From Candidatus Rokuibacteriota bacterium (GTDB lineage Bacteria; Methylomirabilota; Methylomirabilia; Rokubacteriales; CSP1-6), in NCBI GenBank assembly GCA_003221695.1, contig QHSX01000068.1, positions 1 through 39,129 on the forward strand: DNA of 39,129 bases, written 5' to 3'. Shown here one piece after another: positions 8,351 through 19,245 of this stretch. Each line of letters starts with the position of its first letter. Position 1 is the stretch's first letter. The notes beneath the pieces are model-generated. The model made no database searches, was not told where the DNA came from, and saw only the letters and a list, made by a program, of their open reading frames with translations. Both the position numbers and the translations under genes were made by a program.

Positions 8351-10039
8351 TCATGCCCGCCTTTCGCGCGACCCGGAAGCGCCGAGCAGCTCCCTCGCGT
8401 GACCGCGCGCGGTGTCGGTGACGCGCTCGCCCGCGAGCATGCGCGCGATCTCCTCGACGCGGGCGTCGCCGGCAAGCCCCTCGACGGCGACCCGCGAACG
8501 ACCCGCGCGGAGACTCTTGCTCACGCGCACGTGGTGGTCGGCACGCGCGGCGATCGGCGCCAGGTGGGTCACGCAGAGCACCTGGCGACCCGCCGCGACC
8601 GCCGCGAGCTTCTGCGCGACGACCGCCGCAACGCGTCCGCCGATGCCCGCGTCCACCTCGTCGAAGACCATCGTGGGCACGCGGTCCGCCTTCGCCAGGA
8701 CGGTCGTCAGCCCGAGCATCGTCCGCGAGAGCTCACCTCCGGACGCCACGCGTGCGAGCGGCCGCACCTCCTCACCGGGATTGGTCGAGAGGCGGAACTC
8801 GACCCGCTCGAGCCCCCGGGGCGACACGTCCTCGCGCTCCGCTCGTTCCAGCTCGATCCGGAACCGGGAGCGCTCCATGCCGAGCGCGCGTAGCTCCCGC
8901 TCCACGGCGGGACCCAGACTCTCCGTCGCGGCCCGCCGCCGCTCGGAGAGCTCCGCGGCCGCCTGGCCGAGTTCGGCCTGGAGCTCGCCGAGCCGCCGTT
9001 CCTCGGCGGCGAGGATCTCCTCGTGTCGCGCGAAGCGGTCGAACTCGGCTGCGACCTCGTCGCGGAACTTGAGCATCGCCTCCTCGGTATCGCCGTACTT
9101 CCGCTTGAGGCGCGTGAGCACGTCGAGACGCTCGTCGATCGCCTCGAGCCGGCCGGGCTCGGCCAGCACCGACTCGCGGAGCACCCGGACCGCGGCGAGG
9201 ACCTCCTCGAGCTGCGCCTGGGCCGCGTCGAGCGGCTCGACGGGCGCCGCCACCGCGGGGTCGAGACGCGCCAGGTCGCCAAGGATGCGCGTCGCGCGGT
9301 GGAGCCGGGCCGTCGCCGAGTCGCGATCGTCGTCCAGGAGCGCCGCGACCTCGGCGAAGCCCGCGGTGAGTTTGTCGGCGTGCTGGAGTCGTCGCCGCTC
9401 CTGCCGGAGCTCCTCCTCCTCGCCCGGGCGCAGGCGCGCGCCGTCGAGTTCGGAGAGCTGAAAACGCAGGAGATCCTCGCGCTGGGCGCGATCGCGCTCG
9501 GCGGCCCGCGTCCGCTCCGCCTCGGCGCGCGCCGCACGGAACTTCGCGACGAGGCCAGCCACGCGCTCCCGGAGTTCCTCCGCATCCGCGAAGCGATCCA
9601 AGAGCTCGAGCTGGCGGGCGGGCTCGAGCAGGCGCTGGTGCTCGTGCTGGCCGTGAACCTCCACGAGGTGGTCACCCAGGCGCTCGAGGAGGGCGACGGT
9701 GACGGCCGCGTCGTTGACGAAGGCACGGTGGCGACCCGAGCGACTGAGCTCGCGCCGCGCCACCAGCACGCCGTCGTCGAGCGCGAGCCCCGCTTCCTCG
9801 AGCGTCACGGCCACGGGGCCGCGCGGCTCGACGTCGAAGACCGCCTCGACCGTCGCGGCGTCGGCATCGCTCCGGATCACATCCGTCTGGGCGCGCGCGC
9901 CGAGAACTAACAGAATGGCGTCGATGAGCATCGACTTCCCGGCGCCGGTCTCGCCGGTCAGGACGTTGAGGCCCGGGCGAAACTCCACGGCGACGCTCTC
10001 GATGACGGCGAAGTTCCGGATCCGAAGCTCGCGGAGCAT
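8351..10039 (-). CDS. recN: DNA repair protein RecN
   Basis: This 562-residue SMC-like ATPase has N-terminal R-N-F-A-V-I-E and Walker A T-G-E-T-G-A-G-K-S-M (about residues 28-37). Two long charged coiled-coil arms (about 150-370) follow, and the C-terminal head carries the signature G-G-E-L-S-R-T-M-L and Walker B V-F-D-E-V-D-A-G-I-G-G. RecN acts on double-strand breaks together with RecA. The length matches the family. It lies between nadK (59-bp gap) and secA in one minus-strand run. No LexA-like box is obvious upstream, so SOS control cannot be argued from sequence. Confidence 0.97.
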   Translation of the reverse strand: MLRELRIRNFAVIESVAVEFRPGLNVLTGETGAGKSMLIDAILLVLGARAQTDVIRSDADAATVEAVFDVEPRGPVAVTLEEAGLALDDGVLVARRELSRSGRHRAFVNDAAVTVALLERLGDHLVEVHGQHEHQRLLEPARQLELLDRFADAEELRERVAGLVAKFRAARAEAERTRAAERDRAQREDLLRFQLSELDGARLRPGEEEELRQERRRLQHADKLTAGFAEVAALLDDDRDSATARLHRATRILGDLARLDPAVAAPVEPLDAAQAQLEEVLAAVRVLRESVLAEPGRLEAIDERLDVLTRLKRKYGDTEEAMLKFRDEVAAEFDRFARHEEILAAEERRLGELQAELGQAAAELSERRRAATESLGPAVERELRALGMERSRFRIELERAEREDVSPRGLERVEFRLSTNPGEEVRPLARVASGGELSRTMLGLTTVLAKADRVPTMVFDEVDAGIGGRVAAVVAQKLAAVAAGRQVLCVTHLAPIAARADHHVRVSKSLRAGRSRVAVEGLAGDARVEEIARMLAGERVTDTARGHARELLGASGSRERRA

Positions 10040-11762: not shown

Positions 11763-12478
11763 TATAGGCGACCGTCCCGCCGCGGCCGCAGCAGAAACAG
11801 CAGCACGATCCCCGCGAGAAACCCGCCGATATGCGCGAACCACGCCGTCCCTCCTGTCTCGCCGCCGCCGAGCGCTGACGCCCTGACGGTGATCAGGCCG
11901 TTGACAAACTGGACCACGATCCAGAAGCCGAGCACGACGAGTGCCGGAACGTACACGGGTCGGACGAAGAAACCGAAGATCAGCAACACGAGGACGCGCG
12001 CGTACGGGAACAGCAACAGGTAGGCGCCGAGGATCCCGGACACGGCGCCACTCGCGCCGATCATCGGCACCGTCGAGTGGGGGTTCACCAGCGTCTGGGC
12101 GTAGGCTGCCATGACGCCCGACACAAGATAGAAAAGGAGGAACCGTCCGTGGCCGAGCGTGTCCTCGACGTTGTTGCCGAAGATCCAGAGGTAGAGCATG
12201 TTCCCGCCGACGTGGAACAGGCCGCCGTGGAGAAACATCGCGGTGAAGATCGTGACGAAGGGGGCTGGGAACTCGTCGGCCGCCGAGCAGCTCCCGCTGA
12301 GCCGGCACGGGATCGTCCCGAACTCGGCGACGAACGCCTCGACGACGCCGGCCGCCTCCGGCTCGGCGCTCATGCCGAGGGAAGCCTGGTAGAGAAACAC
12401 GAGGACGTTCGCCACGATCAGCCCGATCGTGACGAGCGGGACCGTGCGGCTCGGAACATCGTCGCTGATCGGGATCAT
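11762..12478 (-). CDS. Rhomboid-family intramembrane serine protease
   Basis: This 238-residue membrane protein has about six hydrophobic segments. The catalytic dyad is visible: Ser143 in M-I-G-A-S-G-A-V-S-G and His216 in A-H-I-G-G-F. The conserved H-G-G-L-F-H-V-G-G-N-M-L-Y-L-W-I-F-G-N (residues 84-102) precedes them, as in bacterial rhomboids. A Cys-containing insert lies in loop 1 (about residues 35-72). Rhomboids cleave transmembrane helices within the bilayer; the substrate is unknown. The start ATG overlaps the M16 stop by 4 nt (12475-12478), and its stop overlaps tlyA, so it is translated in a coupled run. Confidence 0.95.
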   Translation of the reverse strand: MIPISDDVPSRTVPLVTIGLIVANVLVFLYQASLGMSAEPEAAGVVEAFVAEFGTIPCRLSGSCSAADEFPAPFVTIFTAMFLHGGLFHVGGNMLYLWIFGNNVEDTLGHGRFLLFYLVSGVMAAYAQTLVNPHSTVPMIGASGAVSGILGAYLLLFPYARVLVLLIFGFFVRPVYVPALVVLGFWIVVQFVNGLITVRASALGGGETGGTAWFAHIGGFLAGIVLLFLLRPRRDGRL

Positions 12479-13785
12479 CGCGCCGGAGGCAGAAGGACGA
12501 CGATTGTCGGGTGGATCAGGAAGCGCCGCGCGGCGGCCTCGACATCCGCCGCCGTGACCGCGTCGAGTGCCTGCGCGTAACGCTCAGGAAAATCCCAGCC
12601 CGCGCCGATGACCTCGAAGAACGCGAGGTACCAGGCCTGTCGCGCGTTCGTCCGCCGATCGAGCGCAAAGTTCCCGAGGAGGTAGGCTTTCGCCCGCGCG
12701 AGCTCCTCGCGGCCGACCGACGCCTGGCGAATCCGCTCGAGCTCGGCGAGGAGACCCGCCTCGGCCGCGGCGGAGTTCTCGGGCGCCGTGCCGAGGTGCG
12801 TGACGAAGAAGCTGGGTCCGGTCCGGAACGGTATCAGGACCCCGAGCGCATACGCGAGCCCGCGCTTTTCCCTGAGCTCGACGAAGAGTCGGCCCGCCAT
12901 CCCGCCGCCGAGCACGGCGCCCAGCACGCGGACGGCGGGATACGCCGGGTCGCTGAGCCCGGGCCCGAGGTAGCCGACGAGGACCTGCGCCTGTTGGGCC
13001 GGCCGCTCGAGAACGCGCCGTGCGCCGACAGGCGTGGTGGGCGCGGCGGCGCCGACCTCGCCCGTGCCCGGGCGCGGGAGCTTCGCGAAGAGCCGCTCGG
13101 AGATCCGCACGACGCGCTCGTGCGACACCTGGCCGCTCACCGCGAGCACCATCCGCTCCGCCCGGAACACCGCGCGGTAACGCGCGACGAGCTCGCCGCG
13201 CCCGAGTCGCCCGACCGCCGACGCGAGGCCGACGCCGGGCCATGCGTACGGATGGCTTCCGTAGAGCTCCCGCAGCAGCGCGTCGAGGCTCAGCGTGAAC
13301 GGCGTCTCGGCACGTGTCTTGATCTGGCTCAGGATGAGCCGCCGCTCGCGCTCGATCTCCTCGCCCGGGAACGAGGGCTCGAGGGCGACCTCGGCGATGA
13401 GCCCGAGCAGCCCCTCCCAGTGACGCGCGAGCGCTTCGCCGCGGATCTCCGCGGACTCCACCTCCCCCGACGCGTCCAGGTTTCCGCCGATCTCCTCCGC
13501 CGCCTCGGCGAGCTCCGTGGCCGAGCGCCGCGAAGTGCCGCGGATCATCGTCCGGAGCAGGAAGTTGGTGATCCCGGCCATCTCGGGCGTCTCGAACCGC
13601 GAGCCCGCCCGCACCTGGAGTGACGCCGTGACGACCGGCGCCGCCGGGTTCTCGCGAACGATGACCGTCATCCCGTTGGGCAGGAGGTGCCGCGTGATGC
13701 CCGGCGGCTGCGCCGCCGCGGCGCTGGGGATGCCGACGAGGGCCAGGGCGAGGCCGAGCCGGGCGAGGCTCACTCTGGACGTCAT
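12475..13785 (-). CDS. M16-family peptidase homologue, non-catalytic partner subunit
   Basis: This 436-residue protein has a Sec signal peptide (A-A-A-A-Q-P cleavage near residue 26) and the two-domain M16 fold. The place of the HxxEH zinc motif is occupied by G-I-T-N-F-L-L-R-T-M, so it cannot bind catalytic zinc. It does retain the R/Y substrate-binding signature E-L-R-E-K-R-G-L-A-Y-A-L-G in the second half. This is the classic pattern of the inactive subunit in heterodimeric bacterial M16 peptidases. It overlaps the catalytic gene by 4 nt, which supports stoichiometric partnership in the periplasm. Confidence 0.92.
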   Translation of the reverse strand: MTSRVSLARLGLALALVGIPSAAAAQPPGITRHLLPNGMTVIVRENPAAPVVTASLQVRAGSRFETPEMAGITNFLLRTMIRGTSRRSATELAEAAEEIGGNLDASGEVESAEIRGEALARHWEGLLGLIAEVALEPSFPGEEIERERRLILSQIKTRAETPFTLSLDALLRELYGSHPYAWPGVGLASAVGRLGRGELVARYRAVFRAERMVLAVSGQVSHERVVRISERLFAKLPRPGTGEVGAAAPTTPVGARRVLERPAQQAQVLVGYLGPGLSDPAYPAVRVLGAVLGGGMAGRLFVELREKRGLAYALGVLIPFRTGPSFFVTHLGTAPENSAAAEAGLLAELERIRQASVGREELARAKAYLLGNFALDRRTNARQAWYLAFFEVIGAGWDFPERYAQALDAVTAADVEAAARRFLIHPTIVVLLPPAR

Positions 13786-15113
13786 CGCGCGGGCGGCACG
13801 AACGCCACTCGATTGTAGCGCTCGGGATCGAGGTAGCGACGAGCCGCCGAGCGGATCTGGTCCGGCGTGACCGAGCGCAGGCGATCGACGTAGGCGAGCT
13901 CCTCCTCGAGGCGCCAGACCGTCTCCGCGCGCCCGAACGCGTAGGCACGGCCCTCCGCGGTCTCGGTCGAGAAGGCGTCACGCGCCTCGGCCGCAGTCAC
14001 GGCCCGCCTGAGCTCCGCGTCGGTCACGCCGTGCTCGCGCACGCGCTGGAGCTCCGTCAGGATCGCGGCCTCGGCGCGTGCCAGGTTTGCCGGCTCCAGC
14101 TGCGCCGTGATGGTGACGGCGCCGGCGGCCTCGAGGGGCGAGTAGCCCGCGCTCACGGAGCTGACGAGGCCGAGCCTCTCGCGCAGTGCTTGCGGCAGCC
14201 GAGACGATCGCGACTGGCCGAGGATCGACACGAGCAAGTCCACCACCGGCGTGTCAGCGTGATCGAGCTTCGGGCCGAGCCACGCCATGCCCAGATAGGC
14301 CTGCGTCCCAGGCCGCTCGACCTCGAGCATCTTCGTGCGCACGGCGGCGGGCGCCGGCAGCGGAAGCCGCTTGAGCCCGGAGCGCGGCAGCTGGCCGAGC
14401 GTGCGCTCGGCCGCCGCCAGCACCGCCGACGGCACGACGGGTCCCACGACAACCAGCACGAAGGACTCGGGAACGTAGTGCCTGCGGTAGAAAGCGACGA
14501 GCGTTTCCCGCGAGAGCGCCTGGATGAGCTCCCGGGTGCCGATCACCGGCCGACCGTAGGGGTGGCCGTCGAAGAGGACCTCGTAGAGCCGAAGGGCGAG
14601 GTGGCGACGCGGGTTGTCCTCGCCGAGCCGCATCTCCTCGAGGACGATGCGCTTCTCAAGCTCGAGGGTCTCCTGGCTCAGCGTCGAGTTCACGCTGATG
14701 TCGCTGAGCATCTCGATGGTGGCGACCGTGCGCGGCGGGGGAAGCAGGGCGTGATAGTAGGTGTAATCGAGCGACGTCCCCGCGTTGATCCGCCCTCCGA
14801 GACCTTCGACCTCGCGCTCCACGAATCCCGGGGCGCGGGTCACCGTGCCTTTGAACAGCATGTGCTCGAGGTAGTGGGCGAGGCCGAGCTCTGACGACGT
14901 CTCGTCGCGTCCGCCCGCGTCAACCCAGAGCTGGATGGCGACGACGTCGCTGGCATGGAACTCCTGGACGACGACCCGGGTGCCGTTCGCCAGCACGCGC
15001 CGCGTCGGCATCGAGCGCCCAGCATCGGGCGTCCTAACTGAGGTGACAGCGCTGCACGCGCTCCCGAGCAGTACGGCGAGTAGCACGGGCGCGAGGCGCG
15101 CCGGGGGGGACAT
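13782..15113 (-). CDS. M16-family zinc metallopeptidase, catalytic lipoprotein subunit
   Basis: The ATG at 15113 gives a 443-residue protein with a lipoprotein signal ending L-L-G-S-A-C (Cys20). Zinc motif H80-Y-L-E-H84 is intact, with the third ligand in the E-L-E-K-R-I-V-L-E-E helix about 76 residues later. An upstream extension of the frame to 15308 lacks protein character and is not used. The paired partner follows with a 4-nt overlap. Such pairs form clam-shell peptidases that degrade small unfolded peptides. Lipid anchoring would place this one at the inner face of the outer membrane or the outer face of the inner membrane. It heads the M16-M16-rhomboid-tlyA-nadK run. Confidence 0.92.
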   Translation of the reverse strand: MSPPARLAPVLLAVLLGSACSAVTSVRTPDAGRSMPTRRVLANGTRVVVQEFHASDVVAIQLWVDAGGRDETSSELGLAHYLEHMLFKGTVTRAPGFVEREVEGLGGRINAGTSLDYTYYHALLPPPRTVATIEMLSDISVNSTLSQETLELEKRIVLEEMRLGEDNPRRHLALRLYEVLFDGHPYGRPVIGTRELIQALSRETLVAFYRRHYVPESFVLVVVGPVVPSAVLAAAERTLGQLPRSGLKRLPLPAPAAVRTKMLEVERPGTQAYLGMAWLGPKLDHADTPVVDLLVSILGQSRSSRLPQALRERLGLVSSVSAGYSPLEAAGAVTITAQLEPANLARAEAAILTELQRVREHGVTDAELRRAVTAAEARDAFSTETAEGRAYAFGRAETVWRLEEELAYVDRLRSVTPDQIRSAARRYLDPERYNRVAFVPPAR

Positions 15114-15406
15114 ATGTGGCAGCGAGGGTACCACAGGGGTCACGCCGCGACGGGCAGAATGCCGGGCCAGCGCTCGGGGGAACGTCGGGCACAACGCCGG
15201 GACCTTGGGCCGCCGGTGACCGTAACATTTTGATATTGCGTGGAATCTTTGGGCCAGCCGAGCTTGGCAGTGGCCTTGCTGATCATGAACCCATCGAGCT
15301 TGGAGCAAGCCGACAAACTCTCAGGACGAAAGGGGGGTGAAGCGGCCCACAGTAAGCGCGGTGAGAACGCACCACACCTCAACAACCTAGAAGGAACGGG
15401 AGAGAG
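15114..15406. other. Divergent intergenic region
   Basis: This 293-bp region must hold the promoters of the minus-strand M16 operon and of the plus-strand repeat-protein gene. AT-richer sequence around 15222-15250 is the best candidate zone, but I see no convincing -35/-10 pair. A purine-rich ribosome site (GGGAGAG) ends 2-3 nt before the ATG at 15407. Confidence 0.35.
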
Positions 15407-16309
15407 ATGAAAAGATTTTTCGCAGCGATCGTGAGCGTGGCAGTGCTCGGCGCCCTGGCGCCCACGGTGGACGCTCAGTCGTCCTGCCCGTCCGAGGTCC
15501 AGCAGGCGAAGGAAATGTTCGCCAAGGTCGCCAAGGCTCCGGAAGTTCAGGCGCCGCGCACGCTGGCCGGCGCTCGCCAGGATACGCAGGTTCAGTCTCC
15601 ACGCGGTAAGGAGGATGTGCAGGCGCCGCGGTCACTCGCTGGCGCTCGCACTCAGATTGATGTTCAGTCCCCGCGTGGCAAGGAAGATGTCCAGTCCCCG
15701 CGTGGCAAGCAGGATGTTCAGTCCCCGCGCGGCAAGGAAGATGTCCAGTCCCCGCGTGGCAAGCAGGATGTTCAGTCCCCGCGCGGCAAGGAAGATGTCC
15801 AGTCCCCGCGTGGCAAGGAAGATGTCCAGTCCCCGCGTGGCAAGCAGGATGTTCAGTCTCCGCGCGGTAAAGAAGATGTCCAATCTCCGCGCGGTAAAGA
15901 AGATGTCCAGTCCCCGCGCGGCAAGCAGGATGTCCAGTCCCCGCGCGGTAAAGAAGACGTCCAGTCCCCGCGCGGTAAGGAAGATGTCCAGTCCCCGCGT
16001 GGCAAGCAGGATGTTCAGGCTCCGCGCGGTAAAGAAGATGTCCAGTCCCCACGTGGCAAGCAGGATGTTCAGGCCCCGCGTGGCAAGGAAGATGTCCAGT
16101 CCCCGCGTGGCAAGCAGGATGTCCAGGCTCCGCGCGGTAAGCAGGATGTTCAGGCGCCACGTAGCGATCAGGGTGCCGGTCAGGCTGTTCAGGCTCCGCG
16201 CGGCAGCGACGCCGCGAAGCTGATCCACGAGGCCGAGGCCGCGTGCAAGGCCGGCAACATGGCGGAGGCGAAGGCGAAGGCCGAAGCCGCTCTCAGAATT
16301 CTAAAGTAG
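15407..16309 (+). CDS. Exported protein built of tandem nonapeptide repeats (VQSPRGKED/VQSPRGKQD)
   Basis: The 300-residue product has a signal peptide (M-K-R-F-F, hydrophobic core, V-D-A-Q cleavage near residue 24). A short helix with one Cys follows (S-C-P-S-E-V-Q-Q-A-K-E-M-F). Two degenerate longer units contain L-A-G-A-R. Then come eighteen uninterrupted nonapeptides V-Q-(S/A)-P-R-G-K-(E/Q)-D and two decayed units. A C-terminal helical hairpin with the second Cys (E-A-E-A-A-C-K-A-G-N-M-A-E-A-K-A-K-A-E) closes it. The repeat is hydrophilic, Pro/Gly-containing, near charge-neutral (E form) or +1 (Q form), and probably disordered or extended. I recognise no family; a spacer, surface or polyanion-binding role is only a guess. 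The gene is monocistronic, with a strong terminator just after it. Confidence 0.85.
   Translation: MKRFFAAIVSVAVLGALAPTVDAQSSCPSEVQQAKEMFAKVAKAPEVQAPRTLAGARQDTQVQSPRGKEDVQAPRSLAGARTQIDVQSPRGKEDVQSPRGKQDVQSPRGKEDVQSPRGKQDVQSPRGKEDVQSPRGKEDVQSPRGKQDVQSPRGKEDVQSPRGKEDVQSPRGKQDVQSPRGKEDVQSPRGKEDVQSPRGKQDVQAPRGKEDVQSPRGKQDVQAPRGKEDVQSPRGKQDVQAPRGKQDVQAPRSDQGAGQAVQAPRGSDAAKLIHEAEAACKAGNMAEAKAKAEAALRILK
15662..16147 (+). repeat. 18 x 27-bp in-frame tandem repeat
   Basis: The block is exactly 486 bp, eighteen 27-bp units without spacers. Each encodes V-Q-S/A-P-R-G-K-E/Q-D. The Glu (E) and Gln (Q) units alternate as EQ EQ EEQ EEQ EEQ EQ EQ Q, giving an 81-bp higher-order period in the middle. Copies differ by synonymous changes (cgt/cgc, ggc/ggt, aag/aaa, tcc/tct) and by S/A near the 3' end, so they are not all recent duplicates. 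Because the period is a multiple of three, several other frames stay open across it. Confidence 0.97.
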
Positions 16310-16326: not shown

Positions 16327-16364
16327 GAAGGCTCCAGGGGGGCATCCCTGGAGCCTTCTTTTTT
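16327..16364 (+). terminator. Strong intrinsic terminator of the repeat-protein gene
   Basis: A perfect 13-bp stem (16327-16339 with 16346-16358, GAAGGCTCCAGGG and its complement) closes a 6-nt loop. The T-run at 16359-16364 follows directly. It lies 17 nt after the stop codon and 30 nt before the next gene, so that gene needs its own promoter or readthrough. Confidence 0.93.
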
Positions 16365-16393: not shown

Positions 16394-17893
16394 ATGCGCC
16401 TTTGGTTCACGGGTGCGCTCCTCCTCCTTCTTCCCGCGACCGCGGCGGCCGCGGAGATTTCGGTGCAGGAAGCCCTGCTCCGCGCGAAGCCGGCCGTTGC
16501 GCTCGTCGTCGCGGAGGTCGGCTCGGAAGTCATCGTGACCTGTCCGGGTCGCGGCGAGAAGCTCGTCCGCCCGGCTCCGTTCCGTGAAACGGGCACCGGT
16601 TGGTTCGTCAGCCCGAGCGGGTGGATGCTCACGAACGCCCATGTCGTGTCCCCCGCCCACCGGCCGCCCACGTGGGTCGCCGACCAGCAGGCGCGCCGCG
16701 CGGTGCGCGAGGCGTGCGGCGAGCTCCCGCCCGAGACGCTGGCGGCGACCGCCACGCGGGCCAGGGTCAAGCTCGATCCGTCGCTCGCCGTGATCCTCTC
16801 GAACGGCGTTCGCTTGGCCCCAGCCGTGACCAAGTACAGCCTACCCGTCGCGGCCGAGAGCATGTCGGGCCGCGACCTTGCTCTGCTCAAGCTCGACGCC
16901 GCCGACATGCCCACGCTCCGGCTCGCCGATTCCTCGAACACACAGATCGGCGACAAGCTCCACATCCTGGGTTTTCCGGGCGTGGTGCTGAGCCACGAAC
17001 TCCTCAACGCGTCGGCCAAGGTCGAGGCGTCGGTGACGACCGGCGCGATCTCGGGGTTCAAGGAGGACGTGACGAACCAGCCGGTCATCCAGACCGACGC
17101 GCCGGCGGCGTGGGGCAACAGCGGCGGCCCTGCGGTGAGCTCGCGCGGCGAGGTTCTCGGTGTCGTCACGTTCGTTTCGGTCGCCGGCGGCGACGAGGGC
17201 GGCATCGTCCAGGGCTTCAACTTCGTGATCCCGTCAGCGGCGGTGCGCGAGTTCCTCAAGGGCACCGACGTCCCTCTCGACGAACCGAGCCGGTTCAACG
17301 CGGCCTGGTACGCCGGTCTGGGCGCCTACTTCTCGGGCGATTACACGCGCGCCTCAGAGCACTTCGCCGAGGCCGATCGGCTCATCCCCAAGCTTCCCGA
17401 CGTCCGCCGCGTGACGGCCGAGGCCAAGAATCCGCCGCCAAAGCCGTTCCCGTGGGCCACCGTTGCGGTGGTCGTGACGGTCGCGAGCCTCGGCGCCTAT
17501 GCCGGAATGTGGGGGCTCTCCTGGCGACGAAACCGCTACCGCATCCGCCCGTCGGAGGTGATGCGCCTGCTCGAGACGTCGAGGGAGCGGCCGATCATCC
17601 TCGACGTGCGCGATGGAGCGACGTACGCGAAGAGCCCGGTCCGCATCCCCGACTCGCGGCACATCACCCCGCAGGAGCTCGAGACCGGCGTCACCCGCCT
17701 CGAGATCGAGCCGACCCGCGTGGTCGTCGCCTATTGCACCTGACCCGACGAGGCGACCAGCGCCCGGGTGGCGCACAAGCTCAGGCAGCTCGGCTACAAG
17801 GACGTGAGGATCCTCAAGGGCGGCCTCGGGAGCTGGGCCAACGCCGGCCTGCCGCTCGAGCCGAAGACCTCGCCTTCCGCGGCGCCCGCCTAA
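16394..17893 (+). CDS. Secreted trypsin-like protease fused to a rhodanese domain, candidate selenoprotein (in-frame TGA)
   Basis: An ATG at 16394 begins a signal peptide (L-L-L-L-L-P-A-T-A-A-A-A). Residues ~25-290 are a HtrA/trypsin-like protease with His83 (T-N-A-H-V-V), Asp161 (S-G-R-D-L-A-L-L) and Ser243 (G-N-S-G-G-P). Residues ~300-345 form a TPR-like hairpin. A transmembrane helix spans ~354-376, and a cytosolic rhodanese domain follows from ~383. The rhodanese loop reads Y-C448-T-[TGA450]-P-D-E-A-T-S-A-R, and the frame then continues L-R-Q-L-G-Y-K-D-V-R-I-L-K-G-G to TAA at 17891-17893. DedA-fused rhodanese domains, from memory, have Y-C-x-C-P-N-E at this site, so TGA replaces the second Cys. 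I infer selenocysteine insertion; the alternative is truncation at 449 residues or a base error. The full product would be 499 residues. Confidence 0.75.
17741..17774 (+). promoter_or_regulatory. Candidate bacterial SECIS hairpin downstream of the TGA
   Basis: TGA at 17741-17743 is followed by a perfect 5-bp stem GCGCC/GGCGC (17760-17764, 17770-17774) around loop CGGGT. The loop starts 21 nt after the TGA, within the usual spacing for bacterial SECIS elements, and has a G at its second position as such loops usually do. The stem also encodes conserved residues and the region is GC-rich, so the hairpin alone is weak evidence. Confidence 0.4.
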
Positions 17894-19245
17894 CGGTTCA
17901 AGCGGCGCGCCTCCCGCACGACGCGATCCACGAAGGGCCCCGCGAGGCCCGTGTACGCCGCCGGATCGAGGAGCTGGTCGAGCTCGTCTCCCGGGAGCGC
18001 CGCCGCGACCCGCGGATCCGCGAGCAGACGCTCGCGGAAGCTCCCCTTGCCGTCGAACGCGGCCATGGCGGCGTCGTAGACGAGATCATGGGCCGCGTTC
18101 CGGCCGAGCGTCTCGCCCAGCTTGAGCATCACCGGCTCGGAGAGCAGGAGCCCGCCGAGGCGTCCGAGGTTCTCCTTCATGCGTCCGACGTTGACGCGGA
18201 GCCCGCGCGCAACGACGAGCGACCAGTGCTCGGTCGCCGCCGCCAGACACGCGGCCTCCGGGACCAGCACCCACTCGGCGCGTCCCACGCTCATGTCGCG
18301 CTCGTGCGCCGCGACCATCGTCTCTAGCGCCGTCGCCGCAAGCCCGCGGAGGAGCCGCCCGATCGCGACGATCCGCTCGGCGTGAGTGGGGTTGCGCTTG
18401 TGGGGCATCGTGGAGCTGCCCACCTTGCCGTGCGCGAACGGCTCCTCGAGCTCCATGATCTCGGAGCGCTGGAGCTGGACGACCTCGTTCGCGATGCGCG
18501 CGAGCGTCCCGCCGATCAGCGCCAGCAACGTCACGAACTCCGCGATCGTGTCGCGCGAGGCGTGCCACGCGATGGGCGGCACGCCGAGCCCGAGACGCTC
18601 CAGCGCCCTGCGCTGGACGGCTTCGCCCTGCGGGCCGAAGCCGGCGAGCGTGCCGACCGCGCCGCCCAGCTCACCGACGAAGAGGCGCGGCGCCCCATCA
18701 TCGAGTCGCTCGACCTGCCGGACGCACTCGGCCGTCCACGTGGCCACCTTGAAGCCGAAGGTGATCGGCAGCGCCTGCTGAGCGTGGGTGCGTCCCGCCA
18801 TGACCGTGTCGCGATGGCTCTCGGCGAGGTCGGCGAGCGCGAGCACGAGGGCGACGAGGTCGCGGCGGAGGATCGTGTGCGCCGCACGGAGCTGGAGCAC
18901 CATGCCCGTGTCCATGATGTCCTGCGTGGTCGCTCCCCAGTGCACCCACCTCCCCGCGTCCCCGGCGAGCCGTGCGAGCTCACGGACGAGCGGCACGATC
19001 GGGTGGGCCGTGACAGCCACGTCGCGCCGGACCGCGTCGAGGTCGAGCGCCTCGACCTTCGCCACGCGGGCGATCGCCGCGGCGGACCCCGTCGGGATCA
19101 GCCCGAGCTCCTCCTGCGCGGCGGCGAGCGCGGCCTCGACGTCGAGCCAGCGCTGGAGCATCGTGCGCTCGTCGAACACTGCCCGCATCTCGGGCGTCGA
19201 GAACTGGTCGCCGAAGAGCTGGTAGTCGATGAAGTGGCTAGCCAC
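17890..19245 (-). CDS. Aspartase/fumarase-superfamily lyase, PcaB/PurB-like
   Basis: This 451-residue cytoplasmic lyase carries the superfamily signature G-S-S-T-M-P-H-K-R-N-P. The N-terminal L-F-G-D-Q-F-S-T-P-E-M, W-V-H-W-G-A-T-T-Q-D-I-M-D-T and M-A-G-R-T-H-A-Q-Q-A-L-P-I-T-F-G resemble 3-carboxy-muconate cycloisomerase (PcaB) more than housekeeping adenylosuccinate lyase, which typically has V-H-Y-G-L-T-S-S-D. Members of this subgroup are often annotated as adenylosuccinate lyase without proof. The GTG start at 19245 overlaps the HIT gene by 8 nt, implying coupled translation. Its stop overlaps the protease-rhodanese stop on the other strand. The substrate cannot be fixed from sequence, so no gene symbol is given. 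Confidence 0.85.
   Translation of the reverse strand: MASHFIDYQLFGDQFSTPEMRAVFDERTMLQRWLDVEAALAAAQEELGLIPTGSAAAIARVAKVEALDLDAVRRDVAVTAHPIVPLVRELARLAGDAGRWVHWGATTQDIMDTGMVLQLRAAHTILRRDLVALVLALADLAESHRDTVMAGRTHAQQALPITFGFKVATWTAECVRQVERLDDGAPRLFVGELGGAVGTLAGFGPQGEAVQRRALERLGLGVPPIAWHASRDTIAEFVTLLALIGGTLARIANEVVQLQRSEIMELEEPFAHGKVGSSTMPHKRNPTHAERIVAIGRLLRGLAATALETMVAAHERDMSVGRAEWVLVPEAACLAAATEHWSLVVARGLRVNVGRMKENLGRLGGLLLSEPVMLKLGETLGRNAAHDLVYDAAMAAFDGKGSFRERLLADPRVAAALPGDELDQLLDPAAYTGLAGPFVDRVVREARRLNR

Follow-up and report, generated by a model that had tools for sequence, protein, structure and literature searches.

A probable selenocysteine codon in a predicted membrane protease-rhodanese fusion of an uncultured Methylomirabilota bacterium

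The locus described here raises the question of whether an in-frame TGA codon ends a gene, marks a lesion within it or is read as selenocysteine (Sec). The window, by which we mean the whole 39,129-nucleotide stretch that was analysed, comes from an uncultured soil bacterium of the Candidatus Rokuibacteriota/Methylomirabilota lineage, a relative of Rokubacteria, whose genome comprises 4.6 Mb (completeness 100, contamination 0.12). Starting from the ATG at 16394 on the plus strand, the frame meets a TGA at codon 450 (17741-17743) and then stays open for 49 codons until the TAA at 17891-17893. If the TGA is taken as a stop, the protein is cut inside the active-site loop of a rhodanese domain and half of that domain is lost. 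Translated with the TGA as Sec, the gene (16394-17893) encodes 499 amino acids, and homologues with the same read-through aligned to it over their full length. We consider it very probable that 16394-17893 is a selenoprotein gene, neither a pseudogene nor a gene ending at the TGA. Its product is predicted to be a single-pass inner-membrane protein, composed of an exported HtrA-like serine protease, TPR-like helices, a membrane helix and a cytosolic rhodanese domain.

The TGA codon in the window and in homologous loci

A preliminary description of this DNA had placed the TGA two residues past the rhodanese cysteine, in a frame that stays open and rhodanese-like for 49 codons and ends on a TAA overlapping the stop of the neighbouring gene. 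These points were borne out. The active-site loop reads Y-C-T-U-P-D-E, the TAA overlaps the stop codon (17890-17892, minus strand) of a convergent adenylosuccinate lyase gene (17890-19245), and the match to the Pfam rhodanese model (PF00581, 44.2 bits against a cut-off of 22.2), which covers residues 387-483 (17552-17842, plus strand), spans the TGA. A scan of the window for other Sec codons, based on codon-usage read-through, ranked 17741 first; position 9654 was also among its candidates, at a lower rank. Positions 18383, 13421 and 13139 were rejected as further Sec codons because their frames overlap other genes.

Homologues were collected by a read-through search of 119 relatives, and the majority of genomes in the same family contained full-length copies. 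The closest were found in Candidatus Rokuibacteriota and Methylomirabilota, including a copy with 83% identity in QHTD01000054.1. The resulting set comprises 89 loci; roughly twelve additional matches to paralogues lacking the TGA are not part of it. TGA occupied the position of codon 450 in 61 of the 89 loci, namely 48 long protease fusions, eight DedA-type proteins and five fragments; as the sequences are related, such counts do not represent independent events. Where the 3' end was present, the homologues ran on for 42-64 codons past the TGA. The remaining 28 loci encoded Ser (AGC in 20, AGT, TCG and TCC in one each), Thr (two), Cys (two; TGC in L061 and TGT in L095) or Glu (one). TGC or TGT in relatives, or random residues at the site, had been named beforehand as observations that would speak against Sec; the relatives carried mostly TGA instead, and the site held only Sec, Cys, Ser or Thr and a single Glu. 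Homologues with a CxC motif were also detected in other phyla by a scan whose pattern itself selects for Cys. On a quickly built, unrooted tree, from which the site had been masked, the distribution of Sec, Cys and Ser/other required seven changes, compared with 23.5 when the labels were shuffled. Most Ser copies formed one clade on that tree, and isolated copies with Glu, Ser or Cys were placed in or beside the Sec clades. The codon thus looks like an old Sec site that has been lost repeatedly, as far as can be judged from the sequences. The persistence of Ser and Thr paralogues, with neither Sec nor Cys at position 450, indicates that the protein as a whole may not depend on Sec.

The downstream hairpin and the selenocysteine machinery

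The preliminary description had also noted a 5-bp hairpin 16-37 nt downstream of the TGA, as in bacterial SECIS (bSECIS) elements. Such a hairpin is present at 17760-17774 (plus strand), +17 to +31 after the TGA, and its standing as an element was established by comparison. It consists of a GCGCC/GGCGC stem (arms 17760-17764 and 17770-17774) and the loop CGGGT (17765-17769), which agrees with the consensus NGKRY and contains a G in the apical loop, as expected of a bSECIS hairpin. Both arms were identical in all 61 TGA loci and were kept in only two of the 28 non-TGA loci. The loop followed NGKRY in every TGA locus (CGGGT in 32, CGTGT in 14, AGTGT in five, AGGAT in four, AGTAT in four and CGGGC in two). 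Folded as a single copy, the hairpin region of the window was unremarkable (z = −0.54) and preferred a competing structure, the mean pair probability of the hairpin being 0.014; single-sequence folding was therefore unusable as proof of a SECIS element, and comparative evidence was used. RNAalifold predicted this hairpin alone from 57 distinct TGA sequences and none from 25 non-Sec homologues. The stem arms are invariant among the TGA genes, so there was no covariation to test.

Since the amino acids over the hairpin are conserved, synonymous sites were tested. Among 48 Sec genes, codon entropy was zero in only four of 89 conserved four- or six-fold degenerate columns (median 1.225), and these four columns, Ser456 (AGC), Ala457 (GCC), Val459 (GTG) and Ala460 (GCG), were those that overlap the hairpin. 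In the non-Sec genes, column 459 was split between GTC (14) and GTG (9). When the pattern of TGA, 16 nucleotides and the hairpin was searched for in the 4.6-Mb genome, three matches were obtained (this gene, a DedA-rhodanese gene and C1:311512), with none in the reversed control. The third match lies in an arginine-rich frame with 47 and 85 residues on either side that is not rhodanese-like, and it was taken as a chance occurrence.

The genome also encodes the components required for Sec insertion. The genes selA, selB, selD and that of tRNA-Sec had been proposed as a check, and all four were found. The selA (588.6 bits), selB (373.3 bits) and tRNA-Sec (69.8 bits) genes form one cluster on contig C52, and ARAGORN identified the tRNA-SeC with the anticodon tca. 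The selD gene, on contig C35, contains an in-frame TGA of its own in the motif CAG-U-ASK; Sec at this place is expected for a Sec-containing SelD. Because selA scored above the cut-off in 81 of 93 relatives and is thus near-universal in the class, its co-occurrence with the TGA gene is uninformative. A Methylomirabilota metagenome-assembled genome with 63 predicted selenoproteins is noted in a review (PMC13188914), a mention which, as far as it goes, points to a selenium-rich lineage.

Taken together with the pattern at the codon, these findings strongly support the reading of the TGA at 17741 as Sec, a conclusion reached by sequence comparison. Decay of the gene or a sequencing error, that is, a nonsense TGA in a former Cys or Trp codon with the downstream part not yet eroded, has nothing in its favour other than the presence of a stop codon. 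The same TGA recurs in the 61 loci, across dozens of species; these loci extend from members of the genus to a different family within the class, where protein identity falls to 35-40%, and include the DedA proteins. Past the TGA, both the protein sequence and the synonymous sites of the RNA are constrained. The preliminary description had argued that a decayed gene would hardly keep the end of its domain; we regard decay or error as very improbable, given the conservation of the codon and of the downstream region. Genome-wide reassignment of TGA, for instance to Trp, would likewise account for a TGA that is read through, and it can practically be dismissed, as many homologues of the gene themselves end at TGA, the conserved read-through TGA is always accompanied by the hairpin, the TGA-less homologues never carry Trp, and the genome holds the full Sec machinery.

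Two TGA-less loci, L052 (GAA) and L095 (TGT), retain an intact hairpin. They appear to represent recent Sec losses, which is the simplest explanation, or SECIS fossils; the GAA of L052 could also be an assembly error. Sec, Cys, Ser, Thr and Glu all occur naturally at this one codon, with the hairpin kept or decayed, a series that should be useful for studies of Sec gain and loss.

Predicted architecture and relation to known proteins

The full-length structure model had a pLDDT of 86.5. An N-terminal export signal or signal peptide is predicted at 16394-16453 (MRLWFTGALLLLLPATAAAA), which coincides with the second-ranked hydropathy segment and a model helix at residues 2-10. It is followed by an HtrA-like protease of the trypsin fold (Trypsin_2, PF13365, 85.1 bits; residues 67-257, 16592-17164), the catalytic triad of which (H83, D161 and S243) was invariant in 76 of 76 long homologues. 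The nearest structures to this part of the model were DegQ, AlgW and DegS. A search of Pfam (E ≤ 1) gave no PDZ match after the protease. On the export side there are two further cysteines, C50, with a conservation of at least 90%, and C108, which is invariant; from the sequence they could form a disulfide. Residues 300-345 (17291-17428) form a TPR-like helical region, with model helices at 300-313, 317-330 and 335-345 and a weak TPR match in a paralogue. The single transmembrane helix (residues 354-380, 17453-17533) corresponds to the highest-ranked hydropathy segment and to a model helix of the same extent, and it is followed by a basic stretch. As the arginines just past this helix (R381 and R383) are conserved among the homologues, the positive-inside rule would place the rhodanese domain in the cytosol.

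The model of the rhodanese domain (pLDDT 86.3) resembled solved rhodaneses with a TM score of about 0.75. In a profile of 32 sequences, Cys448 (codon 17735-17737), which 75 of the 76 long homologues share, was aligned to the Y-C of the solved rhodaneses and is thus the probable equivalent of their catalytic cysteine. An ungapped phmmer alignment that put Sec450 on the canonical catalytic Cys was set aside on the basis of this profile. By the profile alignment, which contains two extra residues in the loop, the active-site loop Cys448-Thr-Sec450-Pro-Asp-Glu is two residues longer than that of ordinary sulfurtransferases.

Rhodaneses with a CxU motif are listed among selenoproteins in reviews (PMC9312934, PMC13188914). 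The domain described here shares the Cys-x-Sec arrangement in the active-site loop with these proteins (rhodanese-like form 3, NF041203 rhodanese_LYCAU; COG0607 form 2). It differs from NF041203 in that the motif is AYCTU, not LYCAU, and in its fusion to an exported protease via a membrane helix. NF041203 matched residues 397-491 with 73.2 bits, below its 115-bit cut-off, so that the domain is related to this family and not a member of it. With membrane-anchored proteases of the HtrA/DegS type, the protein has in common the trypsin fold and the conserved triad. Unlike in these, PDZ was not found and the chain continues into a C-terminal membrane helix and a cytosolic rhodanese; the HtrA family models stayed below their cut-offs (TIGR02037, 74.4 versus 416.2 bits; TIGR02038, 56.6 versus 422.95 bits). 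Fusions of DedA with rhodanese (PMC10127716) also combine a membrane protein with a rhodanese domain, their membrane part being an UndP-flippase-like DedA domain where a protease is found here. Sec-containing serine proteases have been predicted from the GOS metagenome (PMC2398784); their Sec belongs to the trypsin domain or to a CxxU motif, and no rhodanese domain is described for them. The fusion of a protease, a membrane helix and a Sec-rhodanese was not found in the literature searched, and the study behind the Methylomirabilota genome with 63 selenoproteins may list it. Hence, CxU rhodanese selenoproteins are already known, and their fusion to a protease appears to be undescribed in searchable papers. 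The gene would add a well-supported selenoprotein architecture in an uncultured phylum.

The preliminary description had pointed to a second Cys at this site in DedA-type rhodaneses; the analogy held in that the genome's own DedA-rhodanese carries TGA at the equivalent codon. This gene (L054, G000:C1, 1075-2061, minus strand) encodes an UndP-flippase-like DedA protein with a Sec-rhodanese and the same hairpin, and seven other loci do likewise. Cation antiporter-like proteins of Anaerolineae (L119-L122 and L124; one record is titled Bacteroidetes) end in a rhodanese with the loop YCTCPDEA. As this loop differs from that of the window only in having Cys for Sec, such a rhodanese appears to have been appended to membrane proteins repeatedly.

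Possible function and gene surroundings

A second copy of the gene in the same genome (L053, G000:C2, 1466-3439, minus strand) has Ser at the Sec site and lacks the hairpin. It encodes the protease, the membrane helix and the rhodanese, followed by an added cNMP-binding domain (PF00027, 77 bits), which suggests a family of transmembrane proteases with exchangeable cytosolic sensors. The cNMP-binding domain after the same core is in keeping with an exported protease that is controlled from the cytosol, and the association of one protease core with different sensor domains in the cytosol speaks for regulation from inside to outside, on which the mechanism proposed here is based. The TGA at 17741 is very probably decoded as Sec by the cell's own SelA, SelB, SelD and tRNA-Sec, directed by the hairpin at 17760-17774. 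Cys448 and Sec450 may then form a reversible selenenylsulfide, or a persulfide/selenosulfide, and so read the redox or sulfane-sulfur state of the cytosol; the membrane helix would relay the state of the rhodanese to the protease and thereby switch proteolysis on the outer side of the inner membrane. Sensing by the Cys448-Sec450 pair with relay through the helix has, in our estimate, slightly less than an even chance of being correct. More tentatively, the protein could be a protease that signals across the membrane, its Cys-x-Sec rhodanese sensing redox or sulfane sulfur in the cytosol and controlling proteolysis beyond the inner membrane, and could belong to a family with the sensor being exchangeable (Sec-rhodanese, or Ser-rhodanese with a cNMP-binding domain) and a neighbouring repeat protein serving as a candidate substrate or partner. 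The Sec-rhodanese may thus be linked to envelope proteolysis, and, if this signalling reading is true, envelope proteolysis would be governed by intracellular selenium chemistry.

The rhodanese might instead be a sulfur- or selenium-transfer enzyme acting as a persulfide carrier, with the protease as a mere membrane-anchored partner and no signalling between the two. Such a role is consistent with the rhodanese fold, with the conserved Cys448 and with the occurrence of similar CxC or CxU rhodaneses on DedA and cation antiporter proteins. The longer active-site loop sets the domain apart from solved sulfurtransferases, and the exchange of Sec for Ser together with the added cNMP-binding domain in paralogues suggests regulation over catalysis; we regard pure transfer activity as unlikely. 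It is also rather doubtful that the TGA serves additionally as a true stop, so that cells short of selenium would make a short form with the rhodanese cut at Thr449 and cells with ample selenium the long Sec form. UGA codons are inherently contested between release factor 2 and SelB, the short form would lose only the last 50 residues and keep the protease and membrane helix whole, and the genome retains the Sec-free paralogue, all of which would suit such a switch. According to the structure model, however, a rhodanese truncated before its last helices would probably misfold.

The gene directly upstream (15407-16309, plus strand) encodes a secreted repeat protein with many units of the PRGKEDVQ type, the candidate substrate or partner of the protease. 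Genes for this repeat protein were seen beside about 30 Sec-type loci, on the same strand, and none was seen near the genome's own Ser paralogue. Two adjoining genes for M16-type peptidases (12475-15122, minus strand) retain their place next to the repeat-protein and Sec-protease genes among close relatives. A very strong intrinsic terminator (16327-16358, plus strand; −29 kcal/mol, z = −5.4) lies between the repeat gene and the Sec protease gene, about 36 nt ahead of the ATG of the latter.
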